A DNA stretch of 64,000 nt, taken from Flavobacterium sp. IMCC34852. GTDB taxonomy: Bacteria; Bacteroidota; Bacteroidia; Flavobacteriales; Flavobacteriaceae. The first letter of the stretch is position 1; the number at the start of each line of letters is the position of its first letter. Positions 39,736 to 49,037 of the stretch are shown piece after piece. The stretch is from the NCBI RefSeq assembly GCF_030643905.1, contig NZ_CP121446.1:1426001-1490000 (forward strand), read 5' to 3'. The notes below the pieces were generated by a model. It was not told the DNA's origin. It ran no database searches and was given only the letters and a program-made list of their open reading frames with translations. The position numbers and the translations under genes are program-made.

Positions 39736-40272
39736 TTAATTCCAATTCTCCTCAAATCCAAAATCCTCAAAGCTGTCATCACCGCCAAACATGTCTAAAT
39801 CATCTTCGTCTAAATCGTCTTCAAATTCGGAGTAAAAGTCTTCATTTTCGGCTTCAAATTCTTTTTCCGGAGCTACGTTTGGCAATTCACCGTGAGAGAA
39901 TAATAAACTGGGATAAATAACTCCGGTTTCGGCTTCTTCAATCGCAGCCAGTTCTACCAGGAATGTCCACATGTTGATAAAATCGTACACGTAAATGATT
40001 TTGGTTTGGTCTTCGCCCAATAATTGGTTCAAAGAATAATCACTCATGATTTTCATTTCACCCGGAACATCACCCGAATCAAACATCGGAATTTCATCTT
40101 CTTGGTTCCATTGGTCATCACAAGTGTAAAAAGAAGCCACTTCTAATCCGTCAAATCCGAAGGCATTGACAATGGCGTTATGCAAATCTTCTAAAGTGTC
40201 CTCTTCCTGAATGGCAATGTCTCTGAAAACATCTTCTTCGGCATCAAGTATAGCTCTGAATTTATAAATCAT
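39736..40272 (-). CDS. pRiA4b ORF-3-like protein with acidic tail
   Basis: 178 residues. The N-terminal part (MIYKFRAILD...FRDIAIQEEDTLEDLHNAI) matches the plasmid pRiA4b ORF-3-like family (PF07929), a beta-grasp-like domain. Databases often call it an IS1096 passenger TnpR protein, but there is no transposase, terminal repeat or other mobile feature here. The last 45 residues are strongly acidic (FEDDLDEDDLDMFGGDD). Function unknown. Candidate TACCTTTG -7 box at 40302-40295 on the minus strand. Confidence 0.83.
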   Translation of the reverse strand: MIYKFRAILDAEEDVFRDIAIQEEDTLEDLHNAIVNAFGFDGLEVASFYTCDDQWNQEDEIPMFDSGDVPGEMKIMSDYSLNQLLGEDQTKIIYVYDFINMWTFLVELAAIEEAETGVIYPSLLFSHGELPNVAPEKEFEAENEDFYSEFEDDLDEDDLDMFGGDDSFEDFGFEENWN

Positions 40273-40360
40273 AATGGTAATTTTTATAAGCGCACAAAGG
40301 TAAATTTAATTTGCAATATTTGATTTCTCAGAGGCGATTTGTTGAAAACTATTTGCATAA

Positions 40361-40383
40361 AAAAAACCCGACTTACGGTCGGG
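40361..40383 (-). terminator. Terminator of the 131-residue secreted protein gene
   Basis: CCCGAC/GTCGGG stem (40367-40372 with 40378-40383) with five-base loop and minus-strand T tract. Confidence 0.85.
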
Positions 40384-40390
40384 CTTTTGA

Positions 40391-40786
40391 TTACTTATTT
40401 TCCGTTTGACACAAACCGACAATCTTGTGGAAGGTATCGTGAAGTGCCGCTAAAGCTTTTTTTATTTCTTCATCTCCGGCGTTTCTTTGCACTAAATCAT
40501 TGACTTTTTTAGTTTCTTTTTTCAAAACTACTATCGACTCTATGAGCTTGGGAGTGCGGTATTCTTCCGGCATATTTTCTACGGCTAAGGCTTCCGCTCG
40601 TTCAACTAGTAGTTCCGAATTTAATTTGATGGGATTCAAGTTTCCATCTTCTGAAGAATGAAATGATTTTGACATTACTTCATGGTACGCTTTAATTTCA
40701 GGCCATCTTTCAGTAATGGTTTGGGCTGATGCGCTGTTTAGGGCAAAGAAAGCCGCAATGGCCAATAGTGATTTGATAATTTTCAT
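40391..40786 (-). CDS. Secreted helical protein, function unknown
   Basis: 131 residues with a signal peptide (ends ASAQ). The mature part is helical and charged, with one Cys near the C-terminus and His residues in HDTFHKIVG. The size and helical pattern recall periplasmic four-helix proteins, but no heme CxxCH motif is present. Divergent from the TonB receptor gene; the 174-bp space between holds the first LytTR-like site. Confidence 0.72.
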   Translation of the reverse strand: MKIIKSLLAIAAFFALNSASAQTITERWPEIKAYHEVMSKSFHSSEDGNLNPIKLNSELLVERAEALAVENMPEEYRTPKLIESIVVLKKETKKVNDLVQRNAGDEEIKKALAALHDTFHKIVGLCQTENK

Positions 40787-40870
40787 TGTCTAAGTGGTTT
40801 TTGGTAATGCAATGCTACTGATTTTTATTCGTATTTTTTGTTAAAGATATTTTTTTTTTGAAAACGAATT

Positions 40871-40900
40871 ACAATTCATCTGCATAAAACTACAATTCGG
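40871..40900 (+). promoter_or_regulatory. Candidate LytTR-regulator site 1 (TonB receptor promoter)
   Basis: Two 9-bp direct repeats, ACAATTCAT (40871-40879) and ACAATTCGG (40892-40900), separated by exactly 12 bp. AgrA and other LytTR proteins bind pairs of 9-bp repeats with 12-bp spacing. A -7-like CAAGTTTG (40934-40941) lies 33 bp downstream with no TTG -33 box, as expected for an activator-dependent promoter. Confidence 0.65.
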
Positions 40901-40960
40901 TAAACTTAAATTCTCTAGTTTTATGTTTTGTTGCAAGTTTGCTTCATCAAAACAAAACCA

Positions 40961-43114
40961 ATGAAGAAGATTTACACCTTAATCCTTTTTTTAGTTGCTT
41001 GTCTAAGCAATGCCCAACAAATAGTTTCCGGAACTGTATTAGATGAAAAAAATAAACCCATAGTCGGAGCCAATATTTTTATCGATGGCACTTACGATGG
41101 CGGTTCTTCAGATGAAAACGGGAATTTTAAATTCACCACAACCGCCATTGGCAATCAGATTTTAGTGATTAGTTTCTTGACTTATGAAACTTTAAAAACG
41201 CCAATTGACGTGGCTACTTGCCAAAATAAATCCTTCAAACTTAAAGAAAGTGTCAATTCACTCGATGCGGTTATAGTAACTGCCGGAACTTTTGATGCCG
41301 GTGAGAAAGCAAGAGTTTCGGTTTTGAAACCCTTAGACATTGTTACAACAGCAGGCGCAATGGGAGATATCGTCTCAGCATTACAAACTTTACCCGGAAC
41401 ACAAACTGTAGGCGAAGACGGAAGATTGTTCGTTCGCGGTGGTGAAGCCGATGAAACCCAAACTTTTGTAGACGGTATTCGCGTAGCACAACCTTATGGC
41501 GCCACGACTGCCAATGTGCCAACGCGTGGTAGATTTTCACCTTTTTTGTTCAGCGGAATGTCGTTTTCTACCGGTGGTTATTCTGCCGAATATGGCGAAG
41601 CGTTGTCGAGTGTTTTATTGCTAAATACCCAAGACGAAGCTGTTGAAGAGAAAACTGATATTTCTTTGATGAGCGTTGGTTTAGGTTTGGCCAATACCCA
41701 AAAATGGAAAAAAAATTCCTTGAGTTTTAATACGGCTTATATCAATTTGGCGCCGTACCAAAAAGTATTTCCGCAACGCGCCGATTGGAACAAACCTTTC
41801 CAATCACTTTCGGGTGAAGCAGTTTACCGATACAGTTTTACGAGTGGTATTTTTAAATTATACGCCGCTTTTGAAGCTTCCCAATTCGACATCAACAGTG
41901 AGTCGATTAACAATCCCGATAAAATCAGAGTGGATTTGGATAATAATAATTTTTACTTGAATTCCTCTTACAAAGGCAATTTTGGTTCGCAATGGCAATT
42001 GTTTACCGGTTTGAGTTATGGTTATAGCCAAAATAAAATTGGTTTAGATTTAGACAATGTAGCCAACTCAGAACATGCGTCTCATTTGAAACTAAAATTA
42101 AAAAAATCATTTTCAGATAGGGTAAAGCTTTCTTTTGGCGGCGATTATTTTATCACAAAATTTGACGAAGATTTCAAACCATACGAAAGAGATATTTTTA
42201 ACAGTGGCTACAACGCTAACATTGCAGCTTTCTTCACCGAAGCGGATATTTTCTTCTCTAAAAAGTTTGCTGTAAAATTAGGAGCAAGGTTATCTAACAA
42301 TGATTTACTTGACGAAACAGTCGTTGCTCCGAGAGCATCCTTGGCTTATAAAATTTCCAAAAACGGTCAGTTTTCTTTTGCTTACGGCAGTTTTACCCAA
42401 GCGCCAAGACAAGATTATTTAAAATATGCCGATTATTTGGAAAGCGAAAAGGCACAGCATTATATTTTGAATTACCAATACAGCAAAGACCGCAGAACAT
42501 TCCGCGCTGAAGCTTACTTTAAAGACTATTCCGATTTGGTGAAGTACGACACAGATACGGCTCAATTTGATACCGATTTCAGCAATACCGGTTCCGGTTA
42601 TGCCAAAGGTTTAGACATTTTTTGGAGAGACAATAAGACCGTTAAAAATGTAGAATACTGGGTTTCTTATTCGTTTATCGATACCCAAAGAAACTATAAA
42701 AATTATACAGCAGAAGTAACGCCAAGTTTTGTTGCCAATCATAGTTTAAGCGTCGTAAGCAAATGGTGGATTAACAAACTGAAATCACAATTGAGTATCA
42801 CCAATTCCTTCACGACCGGAAGACCTTACAACAATCCGAATGAGTCGGAGTTTATGAACGGCAGAACCAAAGGCTACAATAATTTGAGTTTGGGCTGGGC
42901 TTATTTAATGTCGCAACAAAAGATTTTGTACTTTTCAGTATCGAATGTATTGGGAACTCAAAATGTTTTTGGTTACGAATATGCCAACTCGCCCAACACA
43001 GAAGGCGTTTATAACCGAAGAACCATCAGACCAACCGCGGATCAGTTTTTCTTTGTTGGTTTCTTTTGGACGATTAGTGAGAATAAGAAGGATAATCAGT
43101 TGAATAATCTATAA
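40961..43114 (+). CDS. TonB-dependent receptor with carboxypeptidase-regulatory-like domain
   Basis: 717 residues from the ATG at 40961; an in-frame TTG at 40928 lies inside the promoter region. Signal peptide (ends LSNAQ), a CarboxypepD_reg-like domain (about 20-95; VSGTVLDEKNKPIVGANIF), plug (about 115-225; RLFVRGGEADETQTFVDGIR) and a barrel to the C-terminus. Active uptake of an unknown ligand across the outer membrane. No SusD partner follows, so it is probably not a glycan-utilisation SusC. A LytTR-like site precedes it and the kinase/regulator genes follow in the same direction. Confidence 0.93.
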   Translation: MKKIYTLILFLVACLSNAQQIVSGTVLDEKNKPIVGANIFIDGTYDGGSSDENGNFKFTTTAIGNQILVISFLTYETLKTPIDVATCQNKSFKLKESVNSLDAVIVTAGTFDAGEKARVSVLKPLDIVTTAGAMGDIVSALQTLPGTQTVGEDGRLFVRGGEADETQTFVDGIRVAQPYGATTANVPTRGRFSPFLFSGMSFSTGGYSAEYGEALSSVLLLNTQDEAVEEKTDISLMSVGLGLANTQKWKKNSLSFNTAYINLAPYQKVFPQRADWNKPFQSLSGEAVYRYSFTSGIFKLYAAFEASQFDINSESINNPDKIRVDLDNNNFYLNSSYKGNFGSQWQLFTGLSYGYSQNKIGLDLDNVANSEHASHLKLKLKKSFSDRVKLSFGGDYFITKFDEDFKPYERDIFNSGYNANIAAFFTEADIFFSKKFAVKLGARLSNNDLLDETVVAPRASLAYKISKNGQFSFAYGSFTQAPRQDYLKYADYLESEKAQHYILNYQYSKDRRTFRAEAYFKDYSDLVKYDTDTAQFDTDFSNTGSGYAKGLDIFWRDNKTVKNVEYWVSYSFIDTQRNYKNYTAEVTPSFVANHSLSVVSKWWINKLKSQLSITNSFTTGRPYNNPNESEFMNGRTKGYNNLSLGWAYLMSQQKILYFSVSNVLGTQNVFGYEYANSPNTEGVYNRRTIRPTADQFFFVGFFWTISENKKDNQLNNL

Positions 43115-43193
43115 GTTTCTGAGTAACTGAGTCGCTGAGTAACTGAGAAAAGGCTCAGGAACTTATATACTCAGAAACTAAGCCACTCAAAAA
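43111..43193 (+). repeat. 8-nt-period CTNAG array A
   Basis: ATAAGTTT, CTGAGTAA, CTGAGTCG, CTGAGTAA, CTGAGAAA (43111-43150), then AGG, then CTCAGGAA, CTTATATA, CTCAGAAA, CTAAGCCA, CTCAAAAA (43154-43193). It begins at the receptor stop codon and ends 3 bp before LytTR site 2. Confidence 0.75.
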
Positions 43194-43195
43194 AA

Positions 43196-43225
43196 ACAAT
43201 TCATCCCCAAAAATCAACAGTTCGG
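43196..43225 (+). promoter_or_regulatory. Candidate LytTR-regulator site 2
   Basis: ACAATTCAT (43196-43204) and ACAGTTCGG (43217-43225), again 12 bp apart; the second repeat matches the AgrA half-site ACAGTTAAG at 7 of 9 positions. TACTTTTG, a perfect TAnnTTTG box, lies at 43259-43266, the same 33 bp downstream as at site 1. No -33 TTG. Confidence 0.7.
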
Positions 43226-43311
43226 TAAGTATAAGTTTTACAGCAATCAAAACCGAGATACTTTTGGACTATAAAATAACAAGAGTTTTAATCATCAATA
43301 CATTAAAAGAC

Positions 43312-43932
43312 ATGACAAAAATTATCACTACAATCGCTTTTTTCGTTTGCTCTTTATTATCGGCGCAAACACAATATGAACAAGGTATGGCCAAATCACT
43401 CGGACTTTGGGGTGAAGGAAAAGCACAGGAAGCTTCGGATTTGATGGAACGCATTGCCGCTGCAGAAAAAAACAATTGGTTGCCCAATTATTATGTAGCT
43501 TTGATTAATACAACAGAAGCTTTCAATCCGGCAAATAAAGCCAAAGTAGCTGCCTTGTTGGAAAAAGCACAAAATGCCCAAGATGCAGCTTCTATGATTA
43601 GCTTAAATAATCCGGAACTGATGGTCATGCAAGCGATGATTTATACCGCTTTGATTGTTCAGGATCCGATGGTCAACGGGATGAAGTATTCTCCAAAAGT
43701 GACAGAATTGTATACCAAAGCCAAAATCATTGCTCCGGAAAATCCAAGAGTAGTATATTGCAAAGCCGAATTTGAAATCAACAGCGCACCATGGACCGGA
43801 GCCGATGTGAAAAAATTGTGTCAAGACTTGCAAAGTGCCATTCCGTTGTTTGAAAAATTTCAACCCGAATCACCTTTTCATCCCAAATGGGGATCAGACA
43901 GAGCCAAAGAAGCTTTGAAAAATTGTAAATAA
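43312..43932 (+). CDS. Secreted helical-repeat protein, function unknown
   Basis: 206 residues from the ATG at 43312; an earlier TTG at 43264 overlaps the -7 box. Signal peptide (ends LLSAQ). The mature protein is built of helix pairs (GKAQEASDLMERIAAAE, NNWLPNYYVALINT, NPELMVMQAMIYTA), resembling TPR-like repeats. Family members occur in Bacteroidota but I know no function. Directly controlled by LytTR site 2 by inference, and first gene of the small-membrane-protein/kinase/2TM/LytTR run. Confidence 0.82.
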   Translation: MTKIITTIAFFVCSLLSAQTQYEQGMAKSLGLWGEGKAQEASDLMERIAAAEKNNWLPNYYVALINTTEAFNPANKAKVAALLEKAQNAQDAASMISLNNPELMVMQAMIYTALIVQDPMVNGMKYSPKVTELYTKAKIIAPENPRVVYCKAEFEINSAPWTGADVKKLCQDLQSAIPLFEKFQPESPFHPKWGSDRAKEALKNCK

Positions 43933-43933
43933 G

Positions 43934-44000
43934 AAGGTGATAAGGTGCTAAGGTTCTAAGTAAAAAAACCTCAGTACCTTAGAACCTCAGAACCTAAAAA
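43934..44000 (+). repeat. 8-nt-period array B with inverted arms
   Basis: AAGGTGAT, AAGGTGCT, AAGGTTCT (43934-43957) and, after a run of A, CCTCAGTA, CCTTAGAA, CCTCAGAA, CCTAAAAA (43969-44000). AGGTTCTAAG (43951-43960) and CTTAGAACCT (43978-43987) form a perfect 10-bp inverted repeat. It ends 12 bp before the 59-residue gene. Confidence 0.75.
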
Positions 44001-44012
44001 AAAATAGAAATC

Positions 44013-44192
44013 ATGGAAAACCAAAACCAAAACAAAGAAGTAAACAAATTAGGCGGAATGATATTCGTCGGATTCATGTTTGTGGGCATCGCATCCGGAA
44101 TGTATTTTGGTCACGTTGCTGTCGGCACTTTAGCCGGAATGGGTGTAGGATTCATTGCTTCGGCTATGTATCGCTCAGAAAAAAATAAATAA
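44013..44192 (+). CDS. Small membrane protein, 59 residues
   Basis: A short frame from ATG 44013 to TAA 44190-44192. The N-terminus is Asn/Gln/Lys-rich (MENQNQNKEVNK), followed by two hydrophobic Gly-rich segments (about 13-31 and 34-51) with a short turn, and a basic tail YRSEKNK. It lies between arrays B and C inside the receptor/kinase run and fills the gap that would otherwise be empty. Probably an inner-membrane accessory of the kinase system; that role is inference. Confidence 0.7.
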   Translation: MENQNQNKEVNKLGGMIFVGFMFVGIASGMYFGHVAVGTLAGMGVGFIASAMYRSEKNK

Positions 44193-44203
44193 GAAAAAAA
44201 ACA

Positions 44204-44254
44204 CTAAGGCGCTGAGGTTCTAAGTAAAGACCTCAGTACCTTAGAACCTAAAAG
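44204..44254 (+). repeat. 8-nt-period array C with inverted arms
   Basis: CTAAGGCG, CTGAGGTT, CTAAGTAA (44204-44227), AGA, then CCTCAGTA, CCTTAGAA, CCTAAAAG (44231-44254). AGGTTCTAAG (44215-44224) pairs with CTTAGAACCT (44240-44249), the same 10-mer pair as array B. It ends 7 bp before the kinase ATG. Confidence 0.75.
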
Positions 44255-44261
44255 AAAAGTA

Positions 44262-45599
44262 ATGAAACAATTGATAAAAGAAATCCCAAGAGCTATCATC
44301 ATCTCCATCAGCATCTTTTTCGTGTTGTTGTTAATCAGACTGATTACCGGAAACCAAGTAGCTTTTGATTATGCTTTGTTGGTTAACTTTGGGTACAACA
44401 TGCTTTACGGATTCTCGTTGTACTTTGCCAATGCAGCTATTTTTATTTATTTGGATCAAGTATTTAAAGCGGAAAGATTTACACCCAAACGCATATTAAT
44501 AGGCTTTGTTTCTTCGTTTCTGATTTCTATTGTTGTTATTTTTTTACTGCGAATTTTTGAAGATGTGGTCGTCGAAGGTGTTTCGTTTAGGGACTTTTTA
44601 AGCCAAGAACAATTGTCCAATTATTTAGTAGCGGTGATTATCACTTTCATAGTTACTTTAGCTTTTCACGCGTTTTATTTTTACAAAGCCTACGCCGAAA
44701 ACAAAGTCAAAGAGCAAAAGGTAATCGCCGGAACCGCTTCGGCACAGTTTGAAAGTTTGAAGAACCAAATTGATCCGCATTTTTTGTTCAATAGCTTGAA
44801 TGTGTTGAGTTCACTGATAGAAGAAAACCCCGATAATGCTCAACGATTTACGACTTCTTTGTCCAAAATTTACCGCTATGTTTTGGAACAAAAAGACAAA
44901 GAATTGGTTTCGGTTGAGGAAGAGTTGGCTTTCGCCAAAACTTATATGAACTTACTCAAAATGCGTTTTGAAAACAGCATCAGTTATGAACTACCAACTC
45001 ATTTCGATAATCCGGAAGCTAAAGTGGTGCCGTTATCCTTGCAACTTTTACTGGAAAACACCATCAAGCACAATGTGGCAAGCGAGCAAAAGCCGTTGCA
45101 CATCAAAATTTATATTGAAAATAATTATTTAATCGTTGAGAATAATTTACAGAAGAAAGAAGTCTTGCAAGACCGAAAAGGTGTTGGCTTACAAAACATA
45201 GTCAACCGTTATGGATTAATTTCAGAGCGCAAAGTCTTGGTCGATCAAACGGAAACAGCCTTCAAAGTAAAAATTCCCATTTTAACCAAACAAATAGTCC
45301 TCATGGAAACACAAAATATTTACAACGAGAATATGGCTTACATGAAAGCCAAAGAACGAGTAGAAAAACTAAAAGGATTTTACGGCAATTTAATTTCCTA
45401 CTGCTGTGTGATTCCGTTTTTAATCTTTATTAATTTAAAAACCGGCGGTTTTCAATGGTTTTGGTTTCCCATGTTGGGTTGGGGAATGGGATTGACCTTT
45501 CATGCCTTAGAAACTTTTGGCTACGGAAAAAGTTGGGAAGAACGTAAAATCAGAGAAATTTTAAATAAAGAAAATAGTCAGCATAACAAATGGAGTTAA
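44262..45599 (+). CDS. LytS-type histidine kinase fused to a C-terminal 2TM domain
   Basis: 445 residues. Four N-terminal membrane spans (about 12-135), a coiled linker, the His_kinase domain with His173 in NQIDPHFLFNSLN, an HATPase with LQLLLENTIKHN and GVGLQNIVNRY, and then (about 348-440) a 2TM domain (KAKERVEKLKGFYGNLISY ... FPMLGWGMGLTFHALETFG) normally found as a separate protein. It is the sensor partner of the LytTR regulator at 46300. Followed by two free 2TM proteins, the first overlapping or abutting its stop. Confidence 0.92.
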   Translation: MKQLIKEIPRAIIISISIFFVLLLIRLITGNQVAFDYALLVNFGYNMLYGFSLYFANAAIFIYLDQVFKAERFTPKRILIGFVSSFLISIVVIFLLRIFEDVVVEGVSFRDFLSQEQLSNYLVAVIITFIVTLAFHAFYFYKAYAENKVKEQKVIAGTASAQFESLKNQIDPHFLFNSLNVLSSLIEENPDNAQRFTTSLSKIYRYVLEQKDKELVSVEEELAFAKTYMNLLKMRFENSISYELPTHFDNPEAKVVPLSLQLLLENTIKHNVASEQKPLHIKIYIENNYLIVENNLQKKEVLQDRKGVGLQNIVNRYGLISERKVLVDQTETAFKVKIPILTKQIVLMETQNIYNENMAYMKAKERVEKLKGFYGNLISYCCVIPFLIFINLKTGGFQWFWFPMLGWGMGLTFHALETFGYGKSWEERKIREILNKENSQHNKWS

Positions 45600-45601
45600 T
45601 C

Positions 45602-45904
45602 ATGGAAACAAATAATAACGACTTCGAAAGATACCAACGCGCCAAAAAACAAGTGGAGCAAATCAAAGGTTTTTACAGTCACTTGGCTTCTTATATCTTG
45701 GTCATGGCGATTTTAATTTTTATCAATTTAAAATACACCCCACAATACCTTTGGTTTCTTTGGTCTATGATGGGTTGGGGAATTGGTTTGTTTTTTCATG
45801 CAATGAAAGTCTTCAATTGGTTCCCGTTCTTCAACCAAGAATGGGAAGAAAAAAAGATCAAAGAATACATGGAGGAAGAAAATAAAAGAAATAAATTTGA
45901 ATAA
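45602..45904 (+). CDS. 2TM domain-containing protein 1
   Basis: 100 residues from ATG 45602 (an in-frame ATG at 45590 would overlap the kinase end by 10 bases). 2TM domain (PF13239): amphipathic RYQRAKKQVEQIKGFYSHL, two spans with the WSMMGWGIGLFFHAM motif, then EWEEKKIKEYMEEE. Close paralogue of the kinase C-terminus and of the next gene. Its stop shares one base with the next ATG. Confidence 0.88.
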   Translation: METNNNDFERYQRAKKQVEQIKGFYSHLASYILVMAILIFINLKYTPQYLWFLWSMMGWGIGLFFHAMKVFNWFPFFNQEWEEKKIKEYMEEENKRNKFE

Positions 45905-46209
45905 TGATGGGAAATCTAGACGAAATCAAATACCAAGAAGCGGTAAAAAGGGTCAAGCGAATCAAAGGATTCTACAGTCACGCTGCGGTTTATGTGGTGA
46001 TTAACATCATACTGTTGATTGTAAACACTCAAAACTCTACCGAAGGCTTTTTTCATTGGAAAAATTTTGTCACAGCTATGTTTTGGGGCATCGGTTTAGT
46101 CGCTCACGGTTTTTCTGTTTTTGTACCCACCATGATTTTGGGCAAAAATTGGGAAGACAAAAAGATTAAAGAGTTGATGGAGAAGGAGAAAAATAATAAA
46201 TGGGAATAA
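45904..46209 (+). CDS. 2TM domain-containing protein 2
   Basis: 101 residues; same 2TM layout (YQEAVKRVKRIKGFYSHAAVY, MFWGIGLVAHGFSVF, NWEDKKIKELMEKE). Start at 45904 overlaps the previous stop by one base; a second ATG follows at 45907. The three 2TM copies here arose by duplication and could form hetero-oligomers in the inner membrane. Confidence 0.88.
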   Translation: MMGNLDEIKYQEAVKRVKRIKGFYSHAAVYVVINIILLIVNTQNSTEGFFHWKNFVTAMFWGIGLVAHGFSVFVPTMILGKNWEDKKIKELMEKEKNNKWE

Positions 46210-46210
46210 A

Positions 46211-46299
46211 ATAGGCGCTAATGCGCTGAGGTACTGAGGTTAAAGAAAAAAAAGGCCTCAGAACCTTAGAGCCTCAGAACCTTAAGAACCTTAAGAAAA
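46211..46299 (+). repeat. 8-nt-period array D before the LytTR regulator
   Basis: CTAATGCG, CTGAGGTA, CTGAGGTT (46218-46241), a purine-rich spacer, then CCTCAGAA, CCTTAGAG, CCTCAGAA (46256-46279) and CCTTAAGAA twice (46280-46297). It ends 2 bp before the ATG at 46300. Confidence 0.75.
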
Positions 46300-47055
46300 A
46301 TGAATATCATCATCATCGAAGACGAAAAGCCCGCAGCCAGATTACTCCAACGCAAAGTGGAAAAACTGGGCTTGCCAATCAATACACTTTTACATTCTGT
46401 AGAAGAATCTATCCAATGGTTTAACACCAATCCGCATCCTGATTTGATTTTTTTGGATATCCAATTGTCCGACGGTTTGTCGTTTGAAATCTTTGAGCAT
46501 ACAGACATTAAAAGTGCCGTTATTTTTACCACAGCTTATGACGAATATGCATTGCGTGCGTTTAAACTGAACAGTATCGATTACTTATTGAAACCAATAG
46601 ATGAAGACGATTTGGAAAAGGCGGTCAACAAATTCAAAGCGAGAAACATAGCAGCGCCGAATCTTTCTTTGGATTTTGAAATGATTAAAAAAATGTTGGT
46701 CAACCCCATTGACCGAACTTATAAAAAACGTTTCACTATCAAAATGGGACAACAATTGAAGATGATTAACATTGAGGAAGTCGAATGTTTTTACAGCGAA
46801 AACAAAGGCACTTATTTACACACTTCAGACAACCGAGATTACTTGCTCGACAACACTTTAGAACAACTCGAAACCGAACTTGACCCAAAGGACTTCTACC
46901 GCGTTTCGCGCAAATTCATCATCCCGATGAAAGCAATAAAAGAGATTCAACTCCATAGCAATTCCAGACTCAAAGTGATTTTACCAACTTACAAAGACGA
47001 CGAGATAATTGTGGCACGAGAGAGGGTGAGTGAGTTTAAGGAGTGGTTGGGGTAA
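46300..47055 (+). CDS. LytTR-family DNA-binding response regulator
   Basis: 251 residues. Receiver (about 1-120) with the acidic pair in IIEDEKPAA, phospho-acceptor Asp53 in IFLDIQLSDG, Thr in FTTAYDEYA and Lys in LLKPI; LytTR DNA-binding domain (about 145-250; KKRFTIKMGQQLKMI, DFYRVSRKFIIPM). It pairs with the LytS-type kinase and by inference binds the 9-bp repeat pairs at 40871 and 43196. Confidence 0.95.
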   Translation: MNIIIIEDEKPAARLLQRKVEKLGLPINTLLHSVEESIQWFNTNPHPDLIFLDIQLSDGLSFEIFEHTDIKSAVIFTTAYDEYALRAFKLNSIDYLLKPIDEDDLEKAVNKFKARNIAAPNLSLDFEMIKKMLVNPIDRTYKKRFTIKMGQQLKMINIEEVECFYSENKGTYLHTSDNRDYLLDNTLEQLETELDPKDFYRVSRKFIIPMKAIKEIQLHSNSRLKVILPTYKDDEIIVARERVSEFKEWLG

Positions 47056-47139
47056 GCTATGTTAAAGTTGGTAAAATTTTGTTAAGTAAATTCCAATCTA
47101 AACCCTAACTCATTAACTTCGTTACACTTAATTTTTCTG

Positions 47140-47625
47140 ATGAAGTTACTTTACTCAATATCAATCTTTTTCATCCTGACCTTTGCCAGTAATGCTTTGG
47201 CACAAATAACCGTTTATGAAAAATTTGACGATTTTGAAAAAGCGGTAATCAAAGAAGATGAGAACGTTTATGTGATTAACTTTTGGGCGACTTGGTGTGC
47301 TCCGTGTATCAAAGAGTTACCTTATTTTGAGCAACTTCACAAGGAAAATAAAAAGGTAAAAGTAATATTGGTCAGCCTCGACAGCCGAAAAGACCTGGAG
47401 AAAAAGCTTATCCCTTTTGTAGAAAGAAAAAAAATCACCGCTGAGGTTTTGCTCCTAAGCGACAAAGATTACAATTCGTGGTTGTCTAAAATCGACAAAG
47501 ACTGGTCGGGTGCCATTCCGGCCACCTTACTCATACAAGGTAAAAAGCACTTATTTGCCGAACGCGAATTTGAAAACTTTACCGAACTCAACGATTACGT
47601 AAACTCATTTATCAATCTTAATTAA
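47140..47625 (+). CDS. TlpA-like periplasmic thioredoxin
   Basis: 161 residues with a signal peptide (ends NALAQ). Thioredoxin fold with the active-site motif WATWCAPC, then KELPYFEQLH and a cis-Pro region (GAIPATLLIQ). Probably a periplasmic thiol reductase, e.g. for cytochrome or stress repair. 84 bp after the LytTR gene in the same direction and followed closely by another thioredoxin-fold gene. Confidence 0.9.
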   Translation: MKLLYSISIFFILTFASNALAQITVYEKFDDFEKAVIKEDENVYVINFWATWCAPCIKELPYFEQLHKENKKVKVILVSLDSRKDLEKKLIPFVERKKITAEVLLLSDKDYNSWLSKIDKDWSGAIPATLLIQGKKHLFAEREFENFTELNDYVNSFINLN

Positions 47626-47631
47626 TTCAAC

Positions 47632-48237
47632 ATGAAAGTCTTATCCTTATTAGTCCTATTCTTCAGCAGTTTATTTCTGGGAGAAACTGTGGTAAATAAC
47701 GGCTACCAACCCGGAGACAAAGCCGCCGATTTCAAACTAAAATCCGTTGACGGCAAAATGTACAGCATGGCTGATTACAAAGACGCCAAAGGTTTTATTG
47801 TGGTTTTTACTTGTAACACCTGTCCGTTTGCGGTGAAATATGAAGACCGAATCAATGATTTGGCCAAAAAATACAAAAAGCAAGGTTATGTTCTTTTGGC
47901 CATCAATCCTAATGATCCTGCAGTACAACCGGCCGATACTTACGAGTTAATGCAAGAAAAGGCTAAAGACAAAAAGTTTGCTTTTCCTTATTTAGTAGAT
48001 GAAGGACAACAGGTTTATCCGCAATATGGTGCCACTAAAACACCGCATGTATTTTTATTAGACAAAAACTTAGTGGTAAAATACATCGGCGCTATTGATG
48101 ACAATTCAGATGATGCTTCTGCTGTAAAAGAAAAATATTTAGAAAACGCCATCGCCGCATTGGAAAAAGGAAGTGAACCTTCACCTTCTCTCACCAAAGC
48201 CATTGGTTGTTCGATAAAAGCCAAGAAAAAAGTATAA
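47632..48237 (+). CDS. Secreted peroxiredoxin-like/redoxin protein
   Basis: 201 residues with a short signal peptide. AhpC/TSA-like fold: GYQPGDKAADFKLKSVDGK, then VVFTCNTCPFAVKYEDR with a CxxC (CNTC) where the peroxidatic site lies, and KTPHVFLLD (cis-Pro region). Members of this family occur widely as thioredoxin family proteins without a defined substrate. 6 bp after the TlpA-like gene, so an operon; ends in a strong terminator. Confidence 0.88.
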   Translation: MKVLSLLVLFFSSLFLGETVVNNGYQPGDKAADFKLKSVDGKMYSMADYKDAKGFIVVFTCNTCPFAVKYEDRINDLAKKYKKQGYVLLAINPNDPAVQPADTYELMQEKAKDKKFAFPYLVDEGQQVYPQYGATKTPHVFLLDKNLVVKYIGAIDDNSDDASAVKEKYLENAIAALEKGSEPSPSLTKAIGCSIKAKKKV

Positions 48238-48242
48238 ACAAG

Positions 48243-48268
48243 AAGTCCCGATTCAGTCGGGACTTTTT
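48243..48268 (+). terminator. Terminator after the redoxin gene
   Basis: 9-bp stem AAGTCCCGA (48243-48251) with TCGGGACTT (48257-48265) and a T tract. It overlaps the stop of the convergent gene. Confidence 0.9.
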
Positions 48269-49037
48269 ATTTAATATAAACCTTTCGAATCCCAATCAAG
48301 GCGAAGATTAATAGGGTATAAACTATGAAAAACGGTACTATCAATTCAATCCAACCCATGGGTAACATTACCGCGATAATCAACAATTGAAAGCCTAATC
48401 CGTATAACGAAAGCAAGGTCATAAACCAGTTGGGAAAGGTTTTGACTTTGTAAGCCTCTGAATCCAAAGCGTGGATGATTTTGTCAAAAGTGCCGTAAAC
48501 AATTTGGTAAATGCCAAATAGAATATTGACTGATTTTTGGGTTTCTCCCGGCAAAGCTTTAGGCGTTTTGTATTCAAAAATCTTGCTCGTGCTATCACCG
48601 CCAACCGATTTGTTTCTCAAAATCACATAGTAGTAATTATACAAAGTGCCTTGCAATTGTAGCCCGATAAAAGCCAAAAGGGTAAACCAAATCGAGGTTT
48701 CAGAAACATAACAAATCGCCATCAGAAACATAAAATTCAAAACGATATCAAACACACTGTCTAAATACCTGCCGGAATAGGAAGGCGTATTTTTCAATCG
48801 GGCCAATTCACCATCCGCGGCATCGATTCCTGATTTTAGTAAAATGAAAAATCCGGACAATAAATATTGATGTACCAAAATGCAATACATCGCAATCAGT
48901 CCGGAAAGCCCGAAAAGTAAGGTAACATGAATTGGCGTAAAGCGGGAATCTTTTAATTGAAGAGCGAAAAATCTCCCGAAAGATCTTCCGTAATCTGATA
49001 AATCTAAAAATTTATCTTGAGCGGCAAGTTTAGACAT
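48267..49037 (-). CDS. CDP-alcohol phosphatidyltransferase family protein
   Basis: 256 residues, integral membrane. The catalytic signature D..DG..AR..(x)..G...D...D is present (DAADGELARLK ... GRYLDSVFD). It transfers a phosphoalcohol or diglyceride phosphate from a CDP-linked donor, e.g. in phospholipid or phosphoinositide synthesis; the acceptor is not clear. 49 bp after ctaA, probably in one run with tsaC, the CCA-adding enzyme gene and ctaA. Confidence 0.88.
   Translation of the reverse strand: MSKLAAQDKFLDLSDYGRSFGRFFALQLKDSRFTPIHVTLLFGLSGLIAMYCILVHQYLLSGFFILLKSGIDAADGELARLKNTPSYSGRYLDSVFDIVLNFMFLMAICYVSETSIWFTLLAFIGLQLQGTLYNYYYVILRNKSVGGDSTSKIFEYKTPKALPGETQKSVNILFGIYQIVYGTFDKIIHALDSEAYKVKTFPNWFMTLLSLYGLGFQLLIIAVMLPMGWIELIVPFFIVYTLLIFALIGIRKVYIK

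Follow-up and report, generated by a model that had tools for sequence, protein, structure and literature searches.

A predicted LytTR two-component system with a fixed operator-promoter geometry at a TonB-dependent receptor and HusA-family gene pair of Flavobacterium

Introduction

A LytTR operator is described as a pair of direct repeats of about 9 bp, 11-13 bp apart, located 5' of a promoter. The repeats recognised by AgrA are centred near -60 (PMC4227749). In LRS operons a 12-bp gap between the repeats prevails, and the repeats tend to end 10 bp ahead of the -35 element (PMC6193735). Zou et al. (2018; PMC6193735) have also predicted LytTR-type direct repeats in Bacteroidota, ahead of LRS-like operons in Bacteroides thetaiotaomicron and B. 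ovatus, therefore LytTR operators in this phylum are not a new idea. These Bacteroides repeats are 11 bp long and spaced by 11 bp, and a further 11 bp separate them from the promoter, which has a 19-bp spacer and a TATCTTTG box; the corresponding regulators have transmembrane segments and a membrane-protein partner, and the authors presumed autoregulation. LytTR response regulators are abundant in flavobacteria, with 20 of them tabulated for F. johnsoniae (PMC5395568).

The closest described counterpart of the target genes is the Hus system of Porphyromonas gingivalis. The porphyrin-groove residues L123, V124, W130, Y164 and F80 of HusA are reported to matter for haem; single mutants still bound haemin and a combined mutant showed minimal binding only (PMC6173696). 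Two P. gingivalis haem papers name PgFur and HaeSR as regulators of haem uptake, and the term LytTR does not occur in them.

Here we analyse a locus of Flavobacterium sp. IMCC34852 located within a 64,000-nucleotide stretch of DNA (the window). Its initial annotation described two LytTR-type operators, one in front of a TonB receptor gene and another in front of a gene for a secreted protein.

Results and Discussion

Genes of the locus

40961-43114, plus strand: TonB-dependent receptor, 717 aa, with CarbopepD_reg_2, Plug and barrel domains (Pfam)
43312-43932, plus strand: secreted HusA-family protein, 206 aa, all-helical and TPR-like (phmmer, AlphaFold, Foldseek)
44262-45599, plus strand: sensor histidine kinase (PF06580) with a C-terminal 2TM domain and H173 in the motif DPHFLFN (Pfam)
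45590-45904, plus strand: 2TM-domain protein (Pfam)
45904-46209, plus strand: 2TM-domain protein (Pfam)
46300-47055, plus strand: response regulator with receiver (D53) and LytTR domains, the proposed binder of both operators

The 46300 product is a LytTR response regulator: its LytTR domain scores 80.9 bits (cut-off 22.6), its receiver domain 50.2 bits (cut-off 30.2), and the phosphoacceptor D53 is present. The sequence FYRVSRK starts at residue 199. The partner kinase has an intact histidine, H173 (His_kinase PF06580, 90.3 bits). The combination of receiver and LytTR domains with a His_kinase-type partner is shared with AgrA and the LytTR response regulators YpdB, ComE and BtsR. The protein scores below the NCBIfam equivalog cut-offs for both BtsR (108.6 of 246 bits) and LytR (96.5 of 375 bits), and when the LytTR domain by itself was searched against PDB sequences, the sole match was 3d6w, with an E-value of 0.9. 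In LRS systems a membrane inhibitor takes the place of the two-component pair; since a receiver and a histidine kinase are present here, the system is not of the LRS kind.

Several smaller features surround these genes. The stretch separating the secreted-protein gene from the kinase gene contains a hydrophobic-rich ORF of 59 codons (44013-44192, plus strand), as well as repeats of the CTTAGAACC type that look similar to the hairpin at 43110-43195 described below. The divergent 131-aa protein encoded at 40391-40786 (minus strand), which belongs to no Pfam or NCBIfam family, has tblastn matches in about one third of the 44 named loci described below. Two thioredoxin-like genes (47140-48237, plus strand) are located 3' of the regulator and are linked in about one third of the same loci. 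An Rfam scan of 40000-48300 gave no match at the gathering score.

Neither Pfam nor NCBIfam assigns the secreted protein to a family, but its residues 42-206 match HusA (PG_2227; 6bqs, 6crl) with a phmmer E-value of 5.7e-9. In a Foldseek search with its AlphaFold model (mean pLDDT 90), HusA was the best and only match at E <=0.001 (E 3.9e-7, TM 0.79/0.81), the next one having an E-value of 1.6e-3. By sequence and predicted fold, its homology to HusA, the P. gingivalis haemophore, is firm, and a HusA-homologous protein beside a TonB receptor is what the locus shares with the Hus system. The initial annotation's secreted protein can be refined to a HusA-family protein.

The porphyrin groove differs. 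In a single pairwise alignment, HusA L123, V124, W130 and Y164 correspond to V, Q, G and N, and F80 is retained as F71. Among 37 aligned relatives, 36 have glycine in the place of W130 and 31 in the place of Y164, and F80 is kept in 35. Because the groove residues are mostly replaced, calling the protein a haemophore outright was rejected. A tetrapyrrole would be the first ligand candidate by homology, though the binding groove differs.

The receptor can be called HusB-like by neighbourhood only. Matches to it with at least 54% identity over at least 98% of its length were found in 19 of 60 genomes (its own included). A HusA-family profile matched 75 of 296 Bacteroidota genomes; in the 40 loci fetched from these (about 19 kb each), 36 contain a receptor profile match of >200 bits. 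The names HusA and HusB were absent among the matches listed by two protein searches (120 each of thousands), which, apart from a handful of unrelated labels, bore only names such as 'hypothetical protein', 'tetratricopeptide repeat' or 'TonB-dependent receptor'.

Operators and promoter elements

The following elements were located in the window.

40871-40879 and 40892-40900, plus strand: operator 1, ACAATTCAT + N12 + ACAATTCGG, 5' of the TonB receptor gene
40911-40914, plus strand: degenerate -33-like element TTCT, 10 bp past operator 1 and 19 bp ahead of the -7 box
40934-40941, plus strand: -7 box of the receptor promoter, CAAGTTTG
43110-43195, plus strand: strong terminator-like hairpin between the receptor gene and operator 2 (-31.3 kcal/mol, z -7.1 vs 200 shuffles)
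43196-43204 and 43217-43225, plus strand: operator 2, ACAATTCAT + N12 + ACAGTTCGG, 5' of the secreted-protein gene
43236-43239, plus strand: degenerate -33-like element TTTT, 19 bp ahead of the second -7 box
43259-43266, plus strand: -7 box of the secreted-protein promoter, TACTTTTG

The initial annotation reported two pairs of 9-bp direct repeats with a 12-bp gap and an identical distance to the -7 box. Re-reading of the coordinates bears out both points: 12 bases separate the half-sites and 33 bases separate the operator from the box in both promoters. The repeats have the layout of a LytTR operator (direct repeats of about 9 bp, 11-13 bp apart, upstream of a promoter). In total, 47 of 82 aligned bases are identical between the two promoters, and 30 of 64 outside the half-sites. 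A further remark, that no TTG -33 element is found, holds in part: TTG is indeed absent, but 19 bp ahead of the box there is a conserved T-rich element that resembles a weak -33. In an alignment of 81 promoters the T at column 40 of this element (columns 40-43) is invariant, and TTTT is its most frequent form (15 of 38 receptor and 29 of 43 secreted-protein promoters, window included), which rules out promoters devoid of any -33 element. With this weak conserved element the layout becomes the canonical LytTR one.

A -7 box occupies positions -12 to -5 relative to the transcription start (PMC9723704). By this rule, transcription is predicted to start at about 40946 for the receptor and at about 43271 for the secreted protein, which would put the operator centre at about -60. 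The AgrA operator of Staphylococcus aureus likewise comprises 9-bp direct repeats 12 bp apart and centred at about -60. Compared with AgrA and other LytTR regulators, the window system has a Bacteroidota -7 box with a T-rich -33, an asymmetric CATCC extension past the first half-site together with an A-rich spacer, more pronounced in the secreted-protein promoters, and a TonB receptor/HusA-family pair as the target. In letters, the pneumococcal ComE box is presumably closer to the window site than the AgrA site is.

The operator is rare. The repeat pattern of the initial annotation has two matches in the window and none in 100 dinucleotide shuffles, and the looser ACARTTC-N14-ACARTTCGG retrieves the same two sites only from the whole 3.17-Mb genome, with none for the reversed control. 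A pattern of operator plus box with up to two mismatches gives four genome matches: besides both operators, there are two weaker sites (with one and two mismatches). As the reversed pattern matches 11 of 60 genomes (12 matches), the weaker pair is taken as chance. A wider regulon in this genome was rejected on the same grounds, these two being the only matches beyond the operators. Autoregulation of the window's kinase operon was considered as well and rejected: at a promoter matrix score above -25 the two operators are the only hits across 64 kb.

The position of the operators bears on the sign of control. We consider it quite likely, judging from sequence, that the dedicated LytTR two-component system activates the TonB receptor/HusA-family pair. 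Alternatively, the same regulator might repress these promoters, or bind them unphosphorylated, with the signal relieving repression. Operator position alone cannot prove the sign of control, and LytTR repressors such as CoxC exist (PMC11347149). However, the CoxC operator overlaps the -35 element (PMC11347149), while the window operators end 10 bp ahead of the -33-like element with no overlap, which is the described layout of activators; the window promoter elements are also weak. Repression is therefore unlikely, and activation is the reading followed below.

Conservation at orthologous loci

A single scan with the secreted protein yielded 44 named loci, fetched with flanks of up to 10 kb. 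Most are labelled Flavobacterium; the set also takes in Lacinutrix, Altibacter and unclassified assemblies. The nearest one belongs to Flavobacterium sp. J49, with 98% across the secreted protein (the scan may omit the window's own records). The criterion for an operator was a match at 16 or more of the 18 specified bases, taking the nearest candidate where several were found within 800 bp upstream of the gene, so that the half-site columns are partly selected by the search pattern. Receptor promoters were left out for L077, L079, L103 and L106 (receptor absent or cut) and for L085 and L100 (contig ends), and the secreted-protein promoter for L079 (contig edge).

Of the promoters that could be assessed, 37 of 38 for the receptor and 42 of 43 for the secreted protein have the operator, 79 of 81 altogether, with the reservation that several loci are close relatives and do not represent independent events. 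The scan of related loci proposed in the initial annotation was thus passed: a lack of conservation of the repeats or their spacing, which would have refuted the proposal, was not observed. The sole miss is L108, where degenerate pairs can be seen by eye at the expected places. The distance from the operator to the secreted-protein start exceeds 300 nt in 6 of the 42 loci.

The motif xAxxTTT lies at offset +33 in all 81 operators (38/38 receptor and 43/43 secreted-protein promoters, window included), and the -7 box played no part in choosing them. Further conserved features of the promoter alignment are CATCC after the first half-site, A-rich columns 14-16 (58-76% in receptor and 88-95% in secreted-protein promoters), T30 past the second half-site (95% and 98%, respectively) and ATCAAA 3' of the receptor box. 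Receptor boxes mostly begin with C or G, not T, which would fit an activator-dependent promoter.

In ten named loci the unit under operator control also includes a DUF2141-like protein, which begins like a signal peptide. Its gene lies between the operator and the secreted-protein gene in L094, L101, L103, L107 and L115, ahead of the operator in L082, and has an additional operator of its own in L087, L089, L091 and L111. The DUF2141 name was confirmed by Pfam in L087 and L115 only.

The operator and the regulator clade across genomes

A degenerate operator pattern gave 32 matches in 20 of 60 genomes and none when reversed; 29 of the 32 have a receptor or regulator orthologue no more than about 5 kb away. 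Of 22 genomes whose regulator is at least 63% identical, 18 have the operator, versus 2 of the 38 others, G020 and G044 (Fisher p 1.2e-9, a value which treats genomes as independent and is confounded by relatedness). In G020 it adjoins a regulator of 57% identity. With the box added and two mismatches allowed, 39 of 60 genomes match, including all 22 regulator-bearing ones, as do 11 with the reversed pattern. G016 has both the receptor and a 63%-identical regulator, yet no operator-plus-box at the receptor; its match lies elsewhere. Matches with a single mismatch away from the receptor locus (G004:C8:38648, G008:C1:1019253 and G016:C10:140566) are possible further regulon members in other species.

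Dissociation of the operator from its targets is stronger evidence on the identity of the binder than the Fisher association. In four loci with regulators of 55-60% identity, the operator is located ahead of the kinase gene with no receptor/HusA pair within the 16 kb fetched. Where the regulator is 61-70% identical and there is no HusA-family match, the operator lies 0.8-1.1 kb upstream of the regulator in G187, G239 and G290; no operator was found in 3.7 kb of G211. Such loci suggest autoregulated sister systems. The operator tracks the clade of the 46300 regulator more than the target genes.

Sites of this operator and box type ahead of kinase-regulator genes of the same clade, with no HusA-family pair found nearby, lie in L118 (8538), L120 (10327), L121 (7476), L122 (7631), L201 (393), L202 (695) and L203 (402). 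Extra operator-like pairs ahead of an additional 2TM-type gene were seen at L123 13861 and L124 4745 (minus strand), with the box apparently one base farther than usual.

Of 20 loci chosen from the receptor and operator/regulator surveys, 14 have a matrix match above 12; the other six (L119, L127, L128, L129, L132 and L133) have none, and five of them hold a related regulator. Among the 40 phylum-wide loci, 16 have both the operator and a linked regulator (at least 200 bits), three the operator only, three the regulator only and 18 neither, a class which distance alone can produce, as both the matrix and the regulator measure were trained on flavobacterial sequences. All three operator-only genomes carry an unlinked regulator orthologue. 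In L161, L163 and L176, the three with the regulator only, a scripted search for repeats turned up no convincing pair either; in L165, which lacks a linked regulator, the same search found one repeat pair at +33. Counted matches score 13-75 and training promoters 19-88 (the latter by construction), against at most -15.8 for 20 shuffled loci (one strand) and at most 5.1 for 45 reversed sequences. In distant families the spacings are kept and the letters changed, e.g., ACCGTTCAG, ACACTTCAG and ACGCTTCAT. No claim is drawn from covariation of LytTR residues with half-site letters, which phylogeny confounds.

Five LytTR domains are encoded in the genome, so one of the remaining four LytTR proteins, or some unrelated factor, might bind the operators while the adjacent system acts elsewhere. 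Three genomes, G087, G146 and G175, do keep operators without a linked regulator. They nevertheless encode its orthologue elsewhere in the genome (66, 62 and 60% identity, respectively), the operator is found as well in front of those kinase genes of this clade near which no receptor pair was found, and about 3.3 kb around each of the four other LytTR genes contains no matrix match above -5, all of which makes a different binder quite improbable. Both operators very probably bind the neighbouring LytTR regulator, as far as comparative sequence evidence goes.

That the repeats are a regulator-free by-product of the shared ancestry of a duplicated upstream region, as the 47 of 82 common bases might suggest, is barely credible, because most columns in the 20 bases upstream of the operator are 30-60% conserved, compared with mostly 88-100% in the half-site cores (partly selected) and 100% in the unselected box core, and because the geometry is kept in other families despite changed letters.

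Proposed mechanism

From the observed association, fixed geometry, conservation and homology we infer the following scheme of signalling, binding and activation. The system would consist of the predicted membrane histidine kinase (44262), the two 2TM proteins and the LytTR regulator (46300). The phosphorylated regulator is expected to bind the direct repeats as a pair, one subunit per 9-bp half-site, with the bound subunits on the same face of DNA, two turns apart and centred about 60 bp ahead of the start. In this position it could help RNA polymerase at promoters with a weak -33; the receptor promoter additionally has a weak -7 (CA instead of TA). The receptor and the secreted HusA-family protein would be raised together, presumably from separate promoters since the hairpin divides their genes. 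Between them, the two proteins probably serve to capture an extracellular nutrient and bring it into the cell. As far as the sequence pattern shows, the regulon would comprise these two promoters and no others in the genome. The suggestion of the initial annotation that the 46300 protein activates both genes gains support from conservation and from the tracking of the regulator clade.

Significance

We found no defined operator for a flavobacterial LytTR two-component system, and no description of LytTR control over a HusA-family/TonB pair, in the open-licence literature. The initial annotation was likewise not aware of such a site described in flavobacteria; for Bacteroides, LytTR-type repeats had already been predicted (PMC6193735). 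Thus the operator adds to a known LytTR type, and it is for its regulon that no description was found in the open-licence literature.

On balance we favour the view that Bacteroidota possess a LytTR module with 2TM kinases, in which operator and promoter spacing is fixed across several families and whose main flavobacterial task is to switch on a TonB receptor and a HusA-family capture protein with a remodelled groove. If true, the phylum would gain a first two-component regulon of such a type for which the operator is defined. An operator found only twice in the genome and in fixed geometry would mean a small regulon with a testable start site, and could serve as a readout for finding the signal of the 2TM kinases. 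A secreted protein which databases call hypothetical or TPR would become tied to HusA and a TonB receptor, making the question of its ligand answerable and opening a route to the nutrient captured by the HusA-family protein.
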